Shown here: piece by piece, positions 42,229 through 57,340 of the stretch
Layout of the letters: every line of letters starts with the position of its first letter
How positions within the stretch are numbered: the stretch's first letter is position 1
Program-made: the position numbers and the translations under genes
NCBI RefSeq assembly: GCF_022870865.1
Contig: NZ_CP091508.1
Span: forward strand, 2,294,001 to 2,358,000
Source of the DNA: Uruburuella testudinis
Lineage (GTDB): Bacteria > Pseudomonadota > Gammaproteobacteria > Burkholderiales > Neisseriaceae
Length of the DNA stretch: 64,000 nucleotides
Direction of reading: 5' to 3'
Notes under the pieces: generated by a model
What the model saw: the letters and a program-made list of their open reading frames with translations, nothing else
Database searches by the model: none
Told to the model about the DNA's origin: nothing

Positions 42229-45200
42229 CTAAATCACATTCACCGTATCCTGAACCCAAACTTGATAGGAAGTGCCACTCGGTGTTGTGGTATAAACATG
42301 ATAAGCAGTATCCTGATAAGTAACCGTTCCTGAAGAAGTGGTGGTCCAAAGATCAGCCGTATCACCTGCATCACCTTTCACAATCAAGGCATTAACTGCC
42401 GCAGCAGCGCCATCAGCCGTTACCGCAGAAAAGTTAGCAAGCACATCGCTGGCTGCAATGGTAACGCGATTGTTACCATTGCCGGTTAAATCAACTTTCT
42501 CAAAAGTTTTCAAACGATTCAGATTCAGCGTTTGATTGACACCCTCAAAGATAAAAGCATCATAGCCGGCACCGCCATTAACCGTACCGCCACTCAAATT
42601 GCCTCCTTGAACCAATTTAACGATATCATTGCCGGCATCCAGATTGACTGTACCACCGGACATATTGGCACCATTACCGATGGTAAAGGTATCATCATCG
42701 GTACCTAAACTCACCGTACCGCCGCTAAATCTGCCCCACTGCCCGGCAAAGCTGTGATTATAGGTGGTATCGGCACTGATAATGTATTGGTCTGAGCCGG
42801 CGCCCATATTGATACTGCCGTCGGTCATACCGCCCAAATGCACCGTATCATCACCTGCACCGCTGTTCAGATGTACCCATTGCTTCTGGAAGCTGGAGTT
42901 TTGTAAGTCAAACACATCATCACCGGAGCCGGAGTTGATGGTGCCGACTAAAAACTCCACACCATAGCCATCAGTGGTTTTCATCAGGTTATTCCCGTCA
43001 CCCAAACTCACCTTCACATTAGTGTCTGTATCATAGTCGAACTGATTACGGGTATTATCATTCCGGGTGGCAATAAACGAAAGGATATCATCCCCAGAAC
43101 CAAACCTCAGTTGGGCATTATTATGAATATTGCCTAATTCCACGCGGTTGTTACCTTCACCCATATCCACAATCGAATTAGTGCGGAGGCGGTCATACAC
43201 AATCAAGGTATCATCACCCTCACCCATATTGACTCTGGCATTATATTGCACGCCGCCATCATAGCTCGCAGGGCTGCCGATGGCCACAAAGTCTGCACCG
43301 GCACCTGTTTCTAATCTGCCGCCACGGATATTTTTCGTTAAGAAGATAAAATCATTATCCGGAGTAGTTAAAGGCGGACGGTTCAATTCAACTGAATAAG
43401 TCGTTTCATTCCAGGTATCTGATAATATACCGTCTCTGACAATCGGCGCACGATTGATTTCTTCTGCCGTTTTACCATTGATATTGTATTCAGTGGTTTT
43501 CACAACAGAACCTTCAACCAAAGTGCCTCGTTCAATCGCAATTTTGCCGGTTGTAGCATTCAGAGCCATTCCGGTCGCCAAAACACCTGATGTAACTGCC
43601 CAACTACCATTGGTTTTTGTCACGACCAAGGTTGACTGCGTGGTACTGCCTGTTAATGTATAATCAATGGTCATGCTCGAACCATCATGCATCGTTGTAC
43701 CGGCTGCTACAGTTTCACGCGCATCATCAGAAATTCTGCCCGGTTCGATAAACAAATCACCAAGATAATCATTGCTGCTCACATCCATATATACCATCGG
43801 CTCAGGTGTCGTGGTATCCACAATCACTTTTTTCACCTCAGTGTAAGCAACATTATCAGAAGCATCGGCAACCTTGGCACGATATTCATACACACCGTCA
43901 GGCACAGCATCTCGCACTCCGCTGCTCAAATCCACCCAAACATCGCCCTGTTTGATTTGATAGGTTACCTGACTGCCTGTTTCGTTTCCGGTAACACCCA
44001 ATACAAAGGTGTTATCTGTACTGATGGCATCTCCATCAACACCGCTATCCTCATACTCAGTGAGTACAAGCTCGCCGGGTTTGGGCGGCACAGTATCCAC
44101 ATAGAGTATTGAATCATCAGCCGTTTGACCGTTCACATCGGTGGCGGTGGCTTTGATGTCGCCGGCCGGTACCGTACCTTCGCTGTCAATACTCCAGCTG
44201 CCGTCCTCACCAACCACAACGCTGCCGATGGTTTGACCGTCTGTGTCGGTCAATACCACGGTGCTGCCGGGTTCGGCGGTGCCGGATACGCTGATGCTGC
44301 CGTCGGTATCCTCGGTAATGCCGGTAATGGCTACGGCCGGAGCGGTTTCGTCGGTATAGGTTTCGGTGGCGCTGCCTTCCTGACCATTTACATCGGTAGC
44401 GGTGGCGGTCAGTTCGCCGGCCGCTACCGTACCTTCGCTGTCGATACTCCAGTTGCCGTCTGAACCGACCACAACGCTGCCGATGGTTTGACCGTCTGTG
44501 TCGGTCAATACCACGGTGCTGCCGGGTTCGGCGGTACCGGATACGCTGATGCTGCCGTCGTCTTTCTCGGTAATGCCGGTAATGGCTACGGCCGGAGCGG
44601 TTTCGTCGGCATAGGTTTCGGTGGCGCTGCCTTCCTGACCGTTCACATCGGTGGCGGTGGCTTTGATGTCGCCGGCCGGTACCGTACCTTCGCTGTCGAT
44701 GCTCCAGTTGCCGTCTGAACCGACTACTGCACTGCCGATGGCTTTGCCGTCTTTGTCGGTCAATACCACGGTGCTGCCGGGTTCGGCGGTGCCGGATACG
44801 CTGATGCTGCCGTCGTCTTTCTCGGTAATGCCGGTAATGGCTACGGCCGGAGCGGTTTCGTCGGCATAGGTTTCGGTGGCGCTGCCTTCCTGACCGTTTA
44901 CATCGGTAGCGGTGGCTTTGATGTCGCCGGCCGCTACCGTACCTTCGCTGCCGATACTCCAGTTGCCGTCCTCACCAACCACAACACTGCCGATGGTTTG
45001 ACCGTCTGTGTCGGTCAATACCACGGTGCTGCCGGGTTCGGCGGTACCGGATACGCTGATGCTGCCGTCGTCTTTCTCGGTAATGCCGGTAATGGCTACG
45101 GCCGGAGCGGTTTCGTCGGCATAGGTTTCGGTGGCGCTGCCTTCCTGACCGTTCACATCGGTGGCGGTGGCGGTCAGTTCGCCGGCCGCTACCGTACCTT

Positions 45201-47690
45201 CGCTGTCGATACTCCAGTTGCCGTCTGAACCGACTACTGCGCTGCCGATCTCTGTGCCGTCTTTGTCGGTCAATACCACGGTGCTGCCGGGTTCGGCGGT
45301 ACCGGATACGCTGATGCTGCCGTCGTCTTTCTCGGTAATGCCGGTAATGGCTACGGCCGGAGCGGTGCTGTCGGTATAGGTTTCGGTGGCGCTGCCTTCC
45401 TGACCGTTTACATCGGTGGCGGTGGCTTTGATGTCACCGGCCGCTACCGTACCTTCGCTGTCAATGCTCCAGTTGCCGTCTGAACCGACTACTGCGCTGC
45501 CGATCTCTGTGCCGTCTTTGTCGGTCAATACCACGGTGCTGCCGGGTTCGGCGGTGCCGGATACGCTGATGCTGCCGTCGGGTTTTTCAGCCACATCGTC
45601 AATGGCTACGGCCGGAGCGGTGCTGTCGTTATAGGTTTCGGTGGCAGTACCTTCCTGACCGTTCACATCGGTGGCGGTGGCTTTGATGTCGCCGGCCGCT
45701 ACCGTACCTTCGCTGTCGATACTCCAGTTGCCGTCTGAACCGACTACTGCGCTGCCGATGGTTTGACCGTCTGTGTCGGTCAATACCACGGTACTGCCCG
45801 GCTCGGCGGTGCCGGATACGCTGATGCTGCCGTCGGTATCCTCGGTAATGCCGGTAATGGCTACGGCCGGAGCGGTTTCGTCGGCATAGGTTTCGGTGGC
45901 GCTGCCTTCCTGACCGTTTGCATCGGTGGCGGTGGCGGTCAGTTCGCCGGCCGCTACCGTACCTTCGCTGTCGATGCTCCAGTTGCCGTCTGAACCGACT
46001 ACTGCGCTGCCGATTTCTGTGCCGTCTTTGTCGGTCAATACCACGGTGCTGCCGGCTTCGGCGGTGCCGGATACGCTGATGCTGCCGTCGTCTTTCTCGG
46101 TAATGCCGGTAATGGCTACGGCCGGAGCGGTTTCGTCGGCATAGGTTTCGGTGGCGCTGCCTTCCTGACCGTTCACATCGGTAGCGGTGGCTTTGATGTC
46201 GCCGGCCGGTACCGTACCTTCGCTGTCGATGCTCCAGTTGCCGTCTGAACCGACTACTGCACTGCCGATGGTTTGACCGTCTTTGTCAGTCAATACCACG
46301 GTACTGCCCGGCTCGGCGGTGCCGGATACGCTGATGCTGCCGTCGGGTTTTTCAGCCACATCGTCAATGGCTACGGCCGGAGCGGTTTCGTCGGCATAAG
46401 TTTTGGTGGCGCTGCCTTCCTGACCGTTCACATCGGTAGCGGTGGCGGTCAGTTCGCCGGCCGGTACCGTACCTTCGCTGTCGATACTCCAGTTGCCGTC
46501 TGAACCGACTACTGCGCTGCCGATGGTTTGACCGTCTTTGTCGGTCAATACCACGGTACTGCCCGGCTCGGCGGTGCCGGATACGCTGATGCTGCCGTCG
46601 GTATCCTCGGTAATGCCGGTAATGGCTACGGCCGGAGCGGTTTCGTCGGCATAGGTTTCGGTGGCGCTGCCTTCCTGACCGTTCACATCGGTAGCGGTGG
46701 CTTTGATGTCGCCGGCCGGTACCGTACCTTCGCTGTCGATACTCCAGCTGCCGTCTGAACCGACTACTGCACTGCCGATCTCTTTGCCGTCTGTGTCGGT
46801 CAATACCACGGTGCTGCCGGGTTCGGCGGTGCCGGATACGCTGATGCTGCCGTCGGTATCCTCGGTAATGCCGGTAATGGCTACGGCCGGAGCGGTGCTT
46901 TCACTATAGGTTTCGGTGGCTTTCTCGCCCTCATTGCCGTTGACGTCGGTTGCAACCGCGCTCACTTCGCCTTCGGGTTGAACGGCATCGGCTTCGACAC
47001 TGTATTTGCCCTCTGTATCGGCAACGGCGGTGCCGGTGCTGCCGTCCGGCCAGGTAACGGTAACGGTCGAACCGGGTTCGGCCGTGCCGACGGCGGTCGG
47101 TTTGCCGTCGTTGTCGTCATCGCTGAGACTTACTGTCGGGGCGGCCGGGCCGCTTTCGTCGCTATAGGTTTCGGTGGCTTTCTCGCCCTCATTGCCGTTG
47201 ACGTCGGTTGCAACCGCGCTCACTTCGCCTTCGGGTTGGACGGTGTCGGCTTCGACACTGTATTTGCCTTCTGCATCGGCAACGGCGGTGCTGGTGCTGC
47301 CGTCCGGCCAGGTAACGGTGACGGTCGAACCGGGTTCGGCCGTGCCTGCGGCGGTCGGTTTGCCGTCGTTGTCGTTATCGCTGAGGCTGATGCTCGGTGC
47401 GGCCGGAGCAGTGCTGTCGCTATAGGTTTCGGTGGTTTTATCACCCTCATTGCCGTTAACGTCGGTCGCTACCGCACTCACTTCGCCTTCGGGTTGGACG
47501 GTGTCGGCTTCGACACTGTATTTGCCTTCTGCATCGGCAGCGGTGGTGCTGGTGCTGCCGTCCGGCCAGGTAACGGTGACGGTCGAACCGGGTTCGGCAG
47601 TGCCTGCGGCGGTCGGTTTGCCGTCGTTGTCGTCATCGCTGATAGTTAGAGTGGTACGCACCGGCTGAGACGGGGGGGGGGGGGGGGAGG
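42229..47690 (-). CDS. Giant repeat adhesin, main part (out of frame with its 5' end)
   Basis: About 1,810 codons downstream of the cytosine run. Domain order in translation: a Pro-rich linker; three 86-residue Ig-like units with NDGKPTAAGTAEPGSTVTVTW; eleven 85-residue units with GSISVSGTAEPGSTVVLTD; another Ig-like domain (GELVLTEYEDSGVDGDAIS); a spacer; then about 270 residues of Gly/Asp-rich RTX-like repeats (GEGDDTLIV, GSGDDVFDL, GAGDDTVHL) and a C-terminal end DTVNVI that should hold the type I secretion signal. This is the BapA/LapA class of secreted biofilm adhesin. An ATG at 47763 opens this frame but gives an implausible Cys/Arg-rich start; the natural start is 48191 through a slipped tract. 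The neighbouring secretion system fits. Confidence 0.88.
44070..46875 (-). repeat. Eleven tandem 255-bp repeats in the adhesin
   Basis: The mark GTTCGGCGGT recurs at exact 255-bp steps from 44271, giving 11 units of 85 residues. Units differ mainly in three short cassettes: ITGITEDTD / ITGITEKDD / IDDVAEKPD at the start, DTDGQTIG / DKDGTEIG / DKDGKAIG / DTDGKEIG in the middle, and PAGDIKA / AAGELTA near the end, shuffled between units. This suggests recombination or gene conversion among units. Confidence 0.9.
46876..47650 (-). repeat. Three tandem 258-bp repeats in the adhesin
   Basis: Three 86-residue units related to the 85-residue set but distinct, with TVTVTWPDGSTST and YSVEADTVQPEGEVSAVATD. 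The motif ACCGGGTTCG recurs at 47071, 47329 and 47587. Confidence 0.88.
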
Positions 47691-48191
47691 AGTTGTCATA
47701 TCGCTGCCTGAAGAGCCTGCAACGGCAGCAATGGCGGCAATCGGCAGCAATGCCAACAGCCACATCGGGTTAAATACCCATAATGGATTAACTACTGCTT
47801 CTCCGCCCAATGCCTGTCCGGCAAAAACCTCTTCCGCCAATAAGCTGATTGCTTCATTTGTTTGGCCGCTCTCAGGCACATAGGGATAAAAATGACCGTT
47901 TTCGTGTTGCCCCACTACGAGGTTGGACACACCGTCTTCGGCATAATAATTTTCGATAATTAAATCGGGTTCATCTATGTTTGAGCCTTCAAATGTAATC
48001 TGCAAATCTTTGCCGACGCGCTTAACTGTAATATTCTCCGGGCCGAAACCTGTGGCTTCGTCAATTAATTCGTAGTTGACATCGGCCTGCGCTTGTACGC
48101 GCACAGCACCGGTGCCGGCGGTATTAAATTGCAGGGTATCCAATGTTTCTTTGGCATTGTTGATTTTTAAGGTAATTTTGTGATCCGACAT
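47646..48191 (-). CDS. Adhesin 5' part: BapA-type prefix domain, ends early by frameshift
   Basis: 181 codons as drawn. The N-terminus (MSDHKITLKINNAKETLD) and following beta-rich region resemble the BapA prefix of type I-secreted adhesins; it includes SNLVVGQHENGHFYPYVPES and SLLAEEVFAGQALGG. A hydrophobic stretch near residues 135-160 (LLALLPIAAIAAVAGSSGS) leads to a Pro linker encoded by the C-run. After six prolines the frame reads RLSRCVPL and stops. With 14 or 17 cytosines it would continue into the repeats as PSQPVRTTLTI. AATATTTATTATG with a GGAGATA upstream gives the start. Confidence 0.88.
   Translation of the reverse strand: MSDHKITLKINNAKETLDTLQFNTAGTGAVRVQAQADVNYELIDEATGFGPENITVKRVGKDLQITFEGSNIDEPDLIIENYYAEDGVSNLVVGQHENGHFYPYVPESGQTNEAISLLAEEVFAGQALGGEAVVNPLWVFNPMWLLALLPIAAIAAVAGSSGSDMTTPPPPPPRLSRCVPL
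47672..47687 (-). repeat. G16/C16 homopolymer tract, predicted phase-variation switch
   Basis: Sixteen consecutive G on the plus strand (C on the coding strand), inside the Pro-linker codons of the adhesin. The upstream frame needs a tract of 14, 17 or any length equal to 2 modulo 3 to enter the repeat frame; 16 gives an early stop 8 codons later. Confidence 0.9.
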
Positions 48192-48227: not shown

Positions 48228-49133
48228 TTATTGCTGTTGGTTGGTATAAAGTTTCACCACAACCCGGCGGTTGGGCTGATTACATGTTTGCACTTGAGCA
48301 GCAGTAGCTTGATTGGCACAGTGGCTGACCACCGGTTCGGCGGCGCCCTTACCTTCTGCATAAATCAATGAAGCAGACACACCGTTTTGCATCAGCAGTT
48401 GTTTGACCGCATCTGCCCGTTGTTTGGAAAGCTGCTGATTGTAGGCTTCAGTGCCTTGGGGATCGGTATGGCCGATCACTTCAATTTTTTTAATGCCCAC
48501 AGGATATTCGCGGATATCCGCAGCGATATTGGCAATCTGTTTGCGGCCGTCGGGAATAATATCGGCGGCTTGCGAGCGGTCGAATGGAAACAAAGCTGAT
48601 GCGCCTAATGTGTATTGACGGGGTGCGCTGCGGGGCGCACAGGTATTTTGTTTGTCGACACGCGACAAGGTGTTGGCTTGATGTTTGCTGTTTTTCAGCT
48701 CCGCCTGGGCGGTTGCTTTATCTACAGCCATCAGCTGCGCTTGGCCGGCCTGGTTTACACTGACACGAAAATAAGATAATTGGCCGCGCGGCAGATTGTA
48801 GAAATTGCCACGGGCGGCTTCATTGGCAGAACTGTTGCCCTGCCCTGTAACGAATGCGCCCAAACGTTGGGGTTGGGCGCAAACCACTGCTTGGGAGTAG
48901 CCGTTTTGCTGTAAGGAGGTTTGATATTCGCCATTGATAACAATGTTAACGGCGGTATGAGAATCACCGGATTGATCGCGGTAAAAAACCAAACCTGCAT
49001 CATTATCGCCAACCCAGCTATCTATCGGCTGATCATTAAAGTTGTGCCACTTTTCTTTGGGATGCGCGCCTGCGCAAGCACTTAAGATCAGTGAAACAGC
49101 GATTACCCCAAAAGTTTTCATTTTTGCTGCCAT
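48228..49133 (-). CDS. OmpA-family lipoprotein linked to the adhesin
   Basis: 301 residues. A lipoprotein signal ends LILSAC with lipid Cys20. The middle (about 25-165) is not recognised. The C-terminal 115 residues are an OmpA-like peptidoglycan-binding domain: ALFPFDRSQAADI, KKIEVIGHTDPQGTEAYNQQLSKQRADAV and NRRVVVKLY. It is probably anchored in the outer membrane and holds peptidoglycan. It lies 36 bases upstream of the adhesin on the same strand; related OmpA-type genes accompany type I adhesin systems elsewhere. Start at 49133 has GGAGTTGG upstream. Confidence 0.87.
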   Translation of the reverse strand: MAAKMKTFGVIAVSLILSACAGAHPKEKWHNFNDQPIDSWVGDNDAGLVFYRDQSGDSHTAVNIVINGEYQTSLQQNGYSQAVVCAQPQRLGAFVTGQGNSSANEAARGNFYNLPRGQLSYFRVSVNQAGQAQLMAVDKATAQAELKNSKHQANTLSRVDKQNTCAPRSAPRQYTLGASALFPFDRSQAADIIPDGRKQIANIAADIREYPVGIKKIEVIGHTDPQGTEAYNQQLSKQRADAVKQLLMQNGVSASLIYAEGKGAAEPVVSHCANQATAAQVQTCNQPNRRVVVKLYTNQQQ

Positions 49134-49601
49134 GTTTATCCAACTCCCATAATGTTGATTTCATCAAAACCAAATATCGGCGCCTGAAAAACTTGTTTGC
49201 CCCTGATACATCACATATGGGCAAGCATTAACAGAACGCACCTTATAGTAACTATATATAATTTGGTTTATATGAAATTATTTCCAATACTATCTTTAAT
49301 CAATATGAATATTAAAAATATGCCTTAACAATAAAAATCAATAAGTGCAAATACTCTATAAATAAATGTATTTAATCATTTTTTTCTAGGAACTTTTACA
49401 ATAAAAATACACAACCCGCTAAATCTATGAAATCTAATGCAGTTATTAAAATACCCTTATCGCTCAATATAAATTTTTATTTTATTGAATTTTTCCATTT
49501 AACTTTTACAAAATCTATTTTTAAATATTTTCGATAAAAATAATTTATGATTGATTTTTCAATTATTTGTGGCATTTTGATAACACTATTCAAATAATTC
49601 T
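49134..49601 (-). promoter_or_regulatory. Very AT-rich upstream region of the lipoprotein-adhesin pair
   Basis: 468 bp, of which 49230-49600 is strikingly A/T-rich (long A and T runs, few C or G) compared with neighbouring DNA. It must hold the promoter for the lipoprotein and adhesin. No open frame. Such DNA is a common target of nucleoid silencing proteins and may be foreign in origin (inference). Confidence 0.5.
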
Positions 49602-50130
49602 CAGACGGCATGTTTCAGACGGCATGTTTCAGACGGCATGTTTCAGACGGCATGTTTCAGACGGCATGTTTCAGACGGCATGTTTCAGACGGCATGTTTC
49701 AGACGGCATGTTTCAGACGGCATGTTTCAGACGGCATGTTTCAGACGGCATGTTTCAGACGGCATGTTTCAGACGGCATGTTTCAGACGGCATGTTTCAG
49801 ACGGCATGTTTCAGACGGCATGTTTCAGACGGCATGTTTCAGACGGCATGTTTCAGACGGCATGTTTCAGACGGCATGTTTCAGACGGCATGTTTCAGAC
49901 GGCATGTTTCAGACGGCATGTTTCAGACGGCATGTTTCAGACGGCATGTTTCAGACGGCATGTTTCAGACGGCATGTTTCAGACGGCATGTTTCAGACGG
50001 CATGTTTCAGACGGCATGTTTCAGACGGCATGTTTCAGACGGCATGTTTCAGACGGCATGTTTCAGACGGCATGTTTCAGACGGCATGTTTCAGACGGCA
50101 TGTTTCAGACGGCATGTTTCAGACGGCATG
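49602..50130. repeat. Tandem array of 38 AT-type DNA uptake sequences
   Basis: The 14-bp unit CAGACGGCATGTTT is repeated without any visible change from 49602; the 38th copy starts at 50120 and ends CAGACGGCATG. The complement, read across units, gives ATGCCGTCTGAA every 14 bp, the 12-mer DUS used by N. meningitidis and N. gonorrhoeae. Elsewhere in the window AGGCCGTCTGAA dominates. With no stop in any plus-strand frame the array creates false ORFs with a 14-residue period. Confidence 0.97.
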
Positions 50131-50173
50131 TAAAAAACCCCGCAGCTTCGCTGCGGGGTTTTTTACATGCCGT
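50127..50173 (-). terminator. Strong terminator after the type I secretion genes
   Basis: AAAAAACCCCGCAGC and GCTGCGGGGTTTTTT with a 3-base loop; the palindrome extends outwards to GGCATGT/ACATGCC, so the final array unit forms one arm. Located 20 bases after the HlyD-type stop. Confidence 0.92.
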
Positions 50174-50192
50174 TTCTCTGTGCTTGTGCGGT

Positions 50193-51422
50193 TTAACGTT
50201 CGCGCAAGGCTTGTTTCATGCGGGTAATCGGTTTGATCAGGTATTGGAATACAGTTTTCTCGCCGGTTTTCACATCAACGGTAGCCACCATGCCGGGGAT
50301 AATCGGCATGTTTTGGCCGTTTTTATCTTTCAGGCTGTTGCTGTCGGTTTGCACCAAAATGCGGTAATACACCTGATTGGGGTCGAGCTTCAAATCATTG
50401 GTGCGCGGCTGGCTGTTATTGCTCATGGTATCGGGGCTGATCAGGGTAACTTTGCCGTCGAGTCCGCCGTAAATGGCATAATCATAGGCGCTGATTTTCA
50501 CAACTGCGGGCAGGCCTGGGCTCATAAAGGCAACATCTTGCGGGCGGATATAGGCTTCCACCAGCAATTTATCGTCTAAGGGGACGATGGTGAGGATATC
50601 CTGCCCTACGTTGACCACGCCGCCTACGGTATTGATTTCGATATTTTTCACAATACCGCGCATGGGGGCGCGAATCAGTGAGCGGTCGACCGGGTCGGCG
50701 CGCATGGCCATGTTTTCTTTGGCTTGAGCCAGCTCCGATTCGGCCTGCACCAGCTCATTATTGGCATCGGCCATATAGCGGTTGCGGCGCTCGGCCATTT
50801 GCAGGGCCAAGTCGCTGGATTGGCGCTGCATACGCAATAGCTCCACTTCGGAAACCACGCCGTGCGCCACCATTGGGGCGGTGATGCTGATTTCTTTATC
50901 CAACGCGGCTTTGCTGATGCTGAGGCCGTGGATGGCTTCGGTAACGGCGCGCCGACGGGCAACAAAGGCGGCATGTTCGCGCTGTTTCAACTCGTTGCTG
51001 ATGCCTTTCGGGAAAGCCAGCTCGCTGCCGTATGCCTCTGCTTTGAGGCGAGCCACCATGGCTTCAAGGTTGTGTACTTTGGCTTCGCTTTCGCGCAATA
51101 CGGCGGAGCTTCGGGTGTCGTCAAGCTTCAGCAGAATCTGGTCTTTTTCAACGATATCGCCTTCCCTCACTTTCATTTCAGTGATGATGCCGGGATCGAG
51201 GCTTTGCACAACTTGCTCGCGGCTGCTGGGAATAACGTTGCCCTGCCCGCGGGTAACTTCTTCAATCGGGCTGTTGTATGCCCATATCACAAAAACCACT
51301 AAAAAGACAAAAAACAGGATAATCACCCAAAATTGGCCGCTGTGTTTCTCTTTTTGCAATGCGGCATTCAGGTCGTTGATGAGTGCCATGTCTTTCGGTT
51401 TGACGTTGTTTTCACTGCTCAT
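50193..51422 (-). CDS. Type I secretion periplasmic adaptor (HlyD/LapC-like)
   Basis: 409 residues. One membrane helix (about 31-50, FWVIILFFVFLVVFVIWAY) is followed by a biotinyl-lipoyl segment, long coiled-coil hairpin (about 100-240) and a beta-barrel region with AYIRPQDVAFMSPGLPAVVKISAYDYAIYGG, typical of HlyD-family adaptors. It links the inner membrane ABC protein to the TolC-like channel. Last of three secretion genes on this strand; 69 bases separate it from the ATPase gene, including one AG-DUS. Confidence 0.92.
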   Translation of the reverse strand: MSSENNVKPKDMALINDLNAALQKEKHSGQFWVIILFFVFLVVFVIWAYNSPIEEVTRGQGNVIPSSREQVVQSLDPGIITEMKVREGDIVEKDQILLKLDDTRSSAVLRESEAKVHNLEAMVARLKAEAYGSELAFPKGISNELKQREHAAFVARRRAVTEAIHGLSISKAALDKEISITAPMVAHGVVSEVELLRMQRQSSDLALQMAERRNRYMADANNELVQAESELAQAKENMAMRADPVDRSLIRAPMRGIVKNIEINTVGGVVNVGQDILTIVPLDDKLLVEAYIRPQDVAFMSPGLPAVVKISAYDYAIYGGLDGKVTLISPDTMSNNSQPRTNDLKLDPNQVYYRILVQTDSNSLKDKNGQNMPIIPGMVATVDVKTGEKTVFQYLIKPITRMKQALRER

Positions 51423-57167: not shown

Positions 57168-57168
57168 T

Positions 57169-57244
57169 TGGCTGGGGAGGAAGGATTCGAACCTTCGCAT
57201 GCTGGAATCAAAATCCAGTGTCTTAACCGCTTGACGACTCCCCA
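57169..57244 (-). tRNA. tRNA-Gln(TTG), second copy
   Basis: 76 nt with encoded CCA. Acceptor TGGGGAG/CTCCCCA, anticodon arm CTGGA-TT-TTG-AT-TCCAG, T-arm GAAGG-TTCGAAT-CCTTC. Identical to the copy at 57253. Anticodon TTG reads CAA/CAG glutamine codons. Confidence 0.96.
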
Positions 57245-57252
57245 AAAAGGGT

Positions 57253-57328
57253 TGGCTGGGGAGGAAGGATTCGAACCTTCGCATGCTGGAATCAAAATCC
57301 AGTGTCTTAACCGCTTGACGACTCCCCA
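57253..57328 (-). tRNA. tRNA-Gln(TTG), first copy
   Basis: 76 nt, identical to the copy at 57169-57244; an 8-base spacer (CAACCCTT on the coding strand) lies between them, so the pair is an exact 84-bp tandem duplication. The tRNAs follow ispE by 12 bases and are probably transcribed with it. Confidence 0.96.
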
Positions 57329-57340
57329 ACACTTCAAACC

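Follow-up and report, generated by a model that had tools for sequence, protein, structure and literature searches.

A DUS array on the terminator of a secretion operon

The window is a stretch of 64,000 nucleotides (G000:C1:2294001-2358000) from a genome, here called G000, that consists of a single contig of 2,949,123 bases. Read from right to left, the locus holds genes for an outer membrane efflux protein, an ABC transporter and an HlyD-type protein, followed by a hairpin, a tandem array of DNA uptake sequences (DUS, the short signals that let Neisseria recognise DNA of their own kind), a 467-bp stretch of 24% GC and an OmpA-family gene, beyond which lies the adhesin region (Table 1). The array thus does lie where originally described, with the secretion operon on one side and the adhesin region on the other, and Tandem Repeats Finder reproduced its claimed position and 14-bp period, with 100% matches and no indels. 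Of the 38 copies first counted, 37 are exact AT-DUS (ATGCCGTCTGAA; 49614-50129, minus strand), whereas the 38th, at the left end, is degenerate. The array carries the exact ten-base DUS core GCCGTCTGAA with an AT/AG extension and, being made of tandem direct repeats of 10-60 bp and high identity, is a minisatellite. Its spacers are all identical (ACAT), unlike the unique spacers of a CRISPR array. CRISPR-like arrays, with ~36-bp repeats and differing spacers, do appear among the Tandem Repeats Finder rows of other stretches (L194 14889-16813 of G000; L316 7223-8578 of a second genome, G001).

Table 1. Features of the hlyD locus in window coordinates
Feature	Position	Strand	Remarks
OmpA-family ORF, 301 aa	48228..49133	-	First gene past the array, at a distance of 467 bp; Pfam OmpA
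Degenerate terminal DUS ATGCCGTCTGAG	49600..49611	-	Array end farthest from the terminator; last base changed
DUS minisatellite	49601..50131	-	14-bp unit ACATGCCGTCTGAA, 37.9 copies, 37 exact AT-DUS
hlyD terminator	50123..50173	-	Perfect stem of 24 bp that includes a T-run; 3-nt loop
ACATGCCGTTTCTC	50165..50178	+	Putative remnant of the second DUS of a former inverted pair
hlyD-type membrane fusion protein, 409 aa	50193..51422	-	Upstream of the terminator; Pfam HlyD_3, orthologues
ABC transporter, 723 aa	51492..53663	-	Type I secretion type, judged by its neighbours; Pfam ABC_tran, ABC_membrane
Outer membrane efflux protein, 423 aa	53701..54972	-	Pfam OEP

The array sits on a DUS terminator, as a stable hairpin with a T-run (-48.5 kcal/mol, z -9.9) lies directly behind hlyD, 19 bases past its stop codon. 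The 3' arm of this terminator ends in ACATGCCGT, with which the first array unit begins, and takes in 9 bases of that unit; the 5' arm falls within GAGAAACGGCAT, in our reading a decayed TTCAGACGGCAT. The site lacks an intact inverted DUS pair, the hlyD-proximal arm appearing decayed (ATGCCGTTTCTC), and no inverted DUS is found at the terminator even when two mismatches are allowed. The array strand itself folds no better than shuffled sequences (z +1.4), so its own structure does not explain instability.

The window contains 41 exact copies of ATGCCGTCTGAA, four of them outside the array, against a chance expectation of 0.01 in shuffles, and 54 AG-DUS. Among the 73 ten-base cores of the window outside the array, 54 are AG, 9 TT and 4 AT, while a further 400 kb of G000 holds 541 cores (427 AG; 41, or 7.6%, AT), an over-representation across the genome that marks the word as a DUS. 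AT thus ranks second among the local forms in G000 and is not evidently foreign. Two consecutive exact 14-bp units were found in G000 only, one of the 100 genomes searched, and three in a row gave no match across bacterial species genomes, a set from which the genome of the window is possibly excluded.

Sister arrays in G000 and other Neisseriaceae

A search for three GCCGTCTGAA cores spaced 2-14 bases apart matched 7 of 83 family genomes, all in the genus of G000. The reversed control pattern (AAGTCTGCCG repeats) matched none in that genus and two genomes of another genus (G107 and G109), which show 5-26 tandem matches to it per strand. G000 itself holds six arrays of 13-90 copies with 224 exact cores in total (47.4 copies x 16 bp, 90 x 18, 16.1 x 17, 21.2 x 17, 37.9 x 14 and 13.8 x 16), of which one is AT, three are TG and two AG. 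The unit of each consists of the DUS core plus 4-8 bp specific to that array, implying that units are made locally. Two of the sister arrays lie, according to Pfam, beside an ATP synthase epsilon-type gene (atpC) and ftsZ; the other three lie beside an RDD-family gene facing DsbD, a beta-ketoacyl synthase gene and a gene for an extracellular solute-binding protein. G000 also contains a DUS-free array of 30 copies of a 15-bp unit (GCTGAGAAAGCTGCT; 499989-500443, L101), which may be coding.

Together, the six arrays explain all 212 triple hits in G000 and 218 of its 247 pairs, leaving 29 isolated two-copy pairs, none of which lies in 400 kb sampled (~4 expected). Between these pairs and the six arrays of 13 or more copies there is nothing of 3-12 copies, and since plain slippage might leave intermediate sizes, this gap counts against it; intermediate sizes do occur in G001 and in a third genome, G017. 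The latter has 12 arrays, all in AG, its main dialect, which account for 161/161 triples, and G001 has six (32/32 triples). The census, confined to these three genomes and to triples of exact GCCGTCTGAA cores spaced 2-14 bases apart, is complete.

Six of the 83 genomes, from three other genera, match an other-dialect pattern (GCWRCCTGAA), with some matches irregular. Tandem arrays on other DUS dialects were seen in G049, G105, G108 and G056, one of those in G105 starting 17 bases from a contig start. Across all bacterial species genomes, a pattern scan matched 38 stretches. Four are Neisseriaceae sequences: one belongs to Neisseria bergeri, one to Neisseria sp. MVDL19-042950 and two to contigs of Bergeriella denitrificans, among them a contig of 5,027 bases with three units at a distance of 78 bases from its end. 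The remaining 34, from unrelated organisms, we take for coding or chance repeats, judging from the matched letters alone. One viral-contig stretch also matches the array pattern.

Setting of the arrays

We scored whether an inverted DUS (with up to two mismatches) or a hairpin lies within 45 bases, which was the case for 16 of 20 arrays, among them 5 of the 6 in G000, compared with 812 of 1,564 DUS in sampled stretches of the three genomes (binomial P 0.009). The other 4 of the 20 had no nearby inverted DUS or hairpin under these criteria; four arrays found later each have an inverted DUS close by, as read by eye.

As a control for repeats in general, arrays of period 10-30 and at least 5 copies without DUS were sought in 20 stretches of 20 kb from each of the three genomes. 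Three were found, namely 19 bp x 11.9 copies, 21 bp x 10.1 and 21 bp x 6.6, of which the 21-bp arrays, having triplet periods, may be coding. DUS thus look like favoured seeds for arrays, although this control is small, and the sampling grid, which skipped or shifted near known arrays, yields no unbiased count of DUS arrays to set beside it. The 19-bp array (L186 6072-6298, G000) lies between two inverted-DUS pairs.

In G017, spacers end in TAAG in seven of the first eight arrays, compared with 34 of 495 DUS cores in sampled stretches of that genome. We considered whether arrays had been seeded from one another and rejected the idea, as mobility is unneeded to explain these ends: short DUS terminators commonly have an AATT loop, and its junction with the usual AAG flank may account for them.

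Orthologous sites in relatives

At E 0.001, hlyD had matches in 39 of 46 genomes of the genus, of which the weaker are other proteins of the HlyD type. For each of hlyD, ftsZ and atpC we read the 230 bases behind the gene at 30 loci; five of the 90 loci, three of G002 and two of G033, end sooner. An intact inverted DUS pair lies behind hlyD at 14 of the 30 loci and behind ftsZ likewise at 14, and behind atpC at 4, one of which is that of G000. Tandem DUS are confined to G000 behind hlyD and atpC, and to G000 and G002 behind ftsZ.

G002 is the closest relative of G000 by its HlyD, FtsZ and AtpC proteins (93-97% identity) and is a draft of about 110 contigs, which stop 81, 93 and 50 bases past the last codon of ftsZ, atpC and hlyD, respectively. 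The ftsZ contig ends inside repeated TTCAGACGGCcttacaca, whose counterpart in G000 is TTCAGACGGCcaacccat. Position, 18-bp period and core are common to the two genomes at this site, while 6 of 7 further spacer bases differ, a pattern that could reflect retention of the core. The atpC contig ends inside a DUS where the G000 array begins and the hlyD contig inside the hairpin, from which we infer arrays at these two sites of G002 as well. As the 2.8 Mb of this draft contain about 220 contig ends, any one site has a chance of ~0.8% of being no more than 100 bases away from an end.

More generally, G002 has 23 tandem DUS pairs, 6 of which are no more than 5 bases away from a contig end. One of these 6, at the end of contig C73, duplicates a 54-base segment of C49, a contig that continues through the site with two units, so the clean cases number 5 of 22 distinct places. 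Among the six contigs only that of ftsZ matched the G000 array regions compared, and array sites are therefore common to the two genomes only in part.

Proposed growth of the arrays

We think it likely that the hlyD array is a DUS minisatellite that grew by slippage or unequal recombination at the terminator. The terminator would formerly have been a hairpin flanked by an inverted AT-DUS pair, one DUS arm of which, together with two flanking bases, would have been tandemly duplicated. Slipped-strand replication, unequal recombination or both would then have enlarged and homogenised the array to ~38 copies, with a copy number that presumably differs between cells. The same process would also have run independently at other DUS terminators of G000 and of several other Neisseriaceae. 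An array formed in this way copies whichever DUS its terminator carried, which would account for the AT dialect at hlyD. Among the four ideas originally offered for the array, a by-product of replication slippage fits best. Its effect on the cell is most likely neutral or slight.

Units are nearly identical within arrays, and variants occur in 3 of the 6 G000 arrays, at or near an end. In one G017 array (G017:C1:1979426-1979801, L324), 14 consecutive units of 22 share the core mutation CCCGTCTGAA, with 7 intact units beside them, indicating that expansion does not need an intact core. According to PMC3630211, a transversion at the mutated position halves transformation in N. meningitidis, so CCCGTCTGAA should be seen as a weakened, not a dead, signal. 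We also considered purifying selection on the core, since a first count gave 20/3,980 changes in cores and 56/2,679 in spacers, fourfold fewer in the core; this candidate was dropped when the difference vanished once end units and indels were removed. The interior substitutions stand at 10/3,770 in cores and 9/2,455 in spacers (P 0.49), in a second count made on the first 20 arrays, with arrays of fewer than 5 units and odd-length spacers dropped and the four later arrays absent.

Alternative explanations

An alternative that we regard as unlikely is expansion driven by uptake, in which DNA with more DUS is taken up more often and longer alleles spread by transformation, making the arrays a runaway version of the molecular drive that has been proposed to act on single DUS. 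Several observations are in its favour: the scarcity of non-DUS arrays of at least 5 copies in 1.2 Mb (three, one of which has a non-triplet period), the AG dialect of all 12 G017 arrays, and the same core with a different spacer behind ftsZ in G000 and G002. Moreover, G000 arrays lie in DUS-poor surroundings (mean neighbour-distance sum 3,903 compared with 2,401 bp, P 0.008), and the four arrays of at least 30 copies stand at the 83-100th percentile.

Against this, the DUS-poor surroundings failed as an advance prediction, four further G017 arrays not being DUS-poor (P 0.97 with the main setting, and 0.95 and 0.50 with two further ones); for the same genome one further array of ~50 copies had been predicted, and four of 14-24 copies were found. 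The association seen in G000 and the first eight G017 arrays, read as compensation for DUS deserts, was accordingly rejected. It is weak over all 24 arrays (P 0.02), stands at P 0.06 for the 16 arrays of ten or more copies, and is absent in G001 (P 0.45). Uptake drive also sits poorly with the multiplication of the mutated core to 14 units and with the equal substitution rates of core and spacer. AG, moreover, is found in only 4 of the 12 arrays of G000 and G001 and in 16 of all 24, where ~19 would be expected from sampled DUS.

Published tests point the same way, in that close DUS add nothing to transformation (PMC3388099), nor close USS to uptake (PMC7811141). DUS spaced 5 nt apart are cited in PMC3388099 as transforming no better than a single DUS, and among dispersed DUS two are better than one and three no better than two (PMC3388099); two USS within 100 bp bring no uptake gain in Haemophilus (PMC7811141). 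Since close DUS are non-additive in these tests, any gain in uptake from the array is probably small, and the proposal of the original prediction that the array is a magnet for uptake is weakened. The same applies to its suggestion that the array favours import from AT-DUS species: PMC3630211 reports that AG-DUS transforms N. meningitidis MC58 at 90% of the AT-DUS level and that its binding is 1.7-fold lower, AT is a common local variant, and the other five G000 arrays are AG or TG. If DUS arrays were selfish DNA after all, with array-bearing DNA favoured at some step of transformation, which we rate as a rather slim prospect, arrays would be preserved and re-formed at the same positions when species diverge, their spacers turning over.

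Considerably less probable still is a contingency locus, in which changes in copy number of the array would alter expression of the adjoining ompA-adhesin genes. Like the phase-variable simple sequence repeats of Neisseria, the array is a repeat tract near a surface-protein operon, with perfect non-triplet repeats, and the adhesin frame has a 16-base homopolymer typical of contingency loci. Unlike them, it has a 14-bp unit and lies outside coding sequence and any visible promoter, rather than in the coding frame or promoter of a gene that it would switch. It ends 467 bp upstream of the ompA start, behind the terminator of another operon, and a consensus scan for promoters (48900-50300) returned a single promoter-like site, on the other strand rather than the coding strand, compared with 3.7 expected in shuffles. 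The array as a variable spacer for regulation, another of the original proposals, thus finds no direct support. Random presence in unrelated loci had been named in advance as an observation that would count against a role of the array, and this is partly what is seen, as other G000 arrays follow ftsZ, an atpC-type gene and other housekeeping genes.

Finally, perfect repeats are difficult to assemble, yet an assembly artefact is the least probable explanation, and a very remote one, given that arrays of different units are present in several other genomes and that draft contigs (G002, Bergeriella denitrificans, G105) break at or near arrays, as expected of real long repeats.

Comparison with known repeats

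The arrangement is real and striking and seems to be undescribed; its two components, the DUS terminator and the minisatellite, are both known. The single and inverted-pair DUS of Neisseriaceae share with the G000 arrays the exact 10-mer core and a place behind genes at terminators, and about half of the relatives read (14 of 30 for each gene) carry the inverted pair at the very place of the hlyD and ftsZ arrays. The G000 arrays differ in being direct and tandem, with 13-90 copies. As in bacterial minisatellites and VNTR loci, short, near-identical units lie head to tail, with variants at the ends and a lineage-specific distribution; unlike in other minisatellites, the repeated word is the organism's own uptake signal, and several independent arrays occur per genome.

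The literature searched, which included few subscription papers, describes DUS as single or inverted-pair signals, and no description of tandem DUS arrays was found among its top matches, in agreement with the original statement that none was known. These include PMC1431543, PMC7371117, PMC8758062, PMC3388099, PMC3898611, PMC2397512, PMC3630211, PMC1939737 and PMC7811141. PMC1939737 argues that simultaneous binding of several signals would favour clusters and would therefore fail to account for the distribution that is observed; DUS arrays, in which signals are clustered, can be weighed against that argument.

The interest of the arrays lies in their recurrence across lineages, in the ease with which drafts hide them and in the natural test that they offer of dependence on signal number. 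Long natural arrays are ready test DNA for asking how uptake responds to the number of signals and whether drive acts on copy number. Our results further suggest that arrays can go unseen at the contig ends of draft Neisseria assemblies and that a few loci can inflate the DUS count of a genome, as do the six that hold 224 cores in G000.

Further features of the window

The 16-base homopolymer (C on the coding strand) lies at window positions 47672-47687, where a 181-aa ORF (47646-48191) and a 1844-aa adhesin ORF (42229-47763) overlap in different frames, and from its sequence the adhesin gene looks phase-variable. Nine DUS cores, eight after TT and one after CT, lie within the Ig-like repeats of the adhesin (44455-46759), mostly 255 bp apart, which matches the phase of the DNA repeats. 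Elsewhere in the window, two tRNA-Gln (ttg) genes form an 84-bp perfect tandem duplication (57168-57329).
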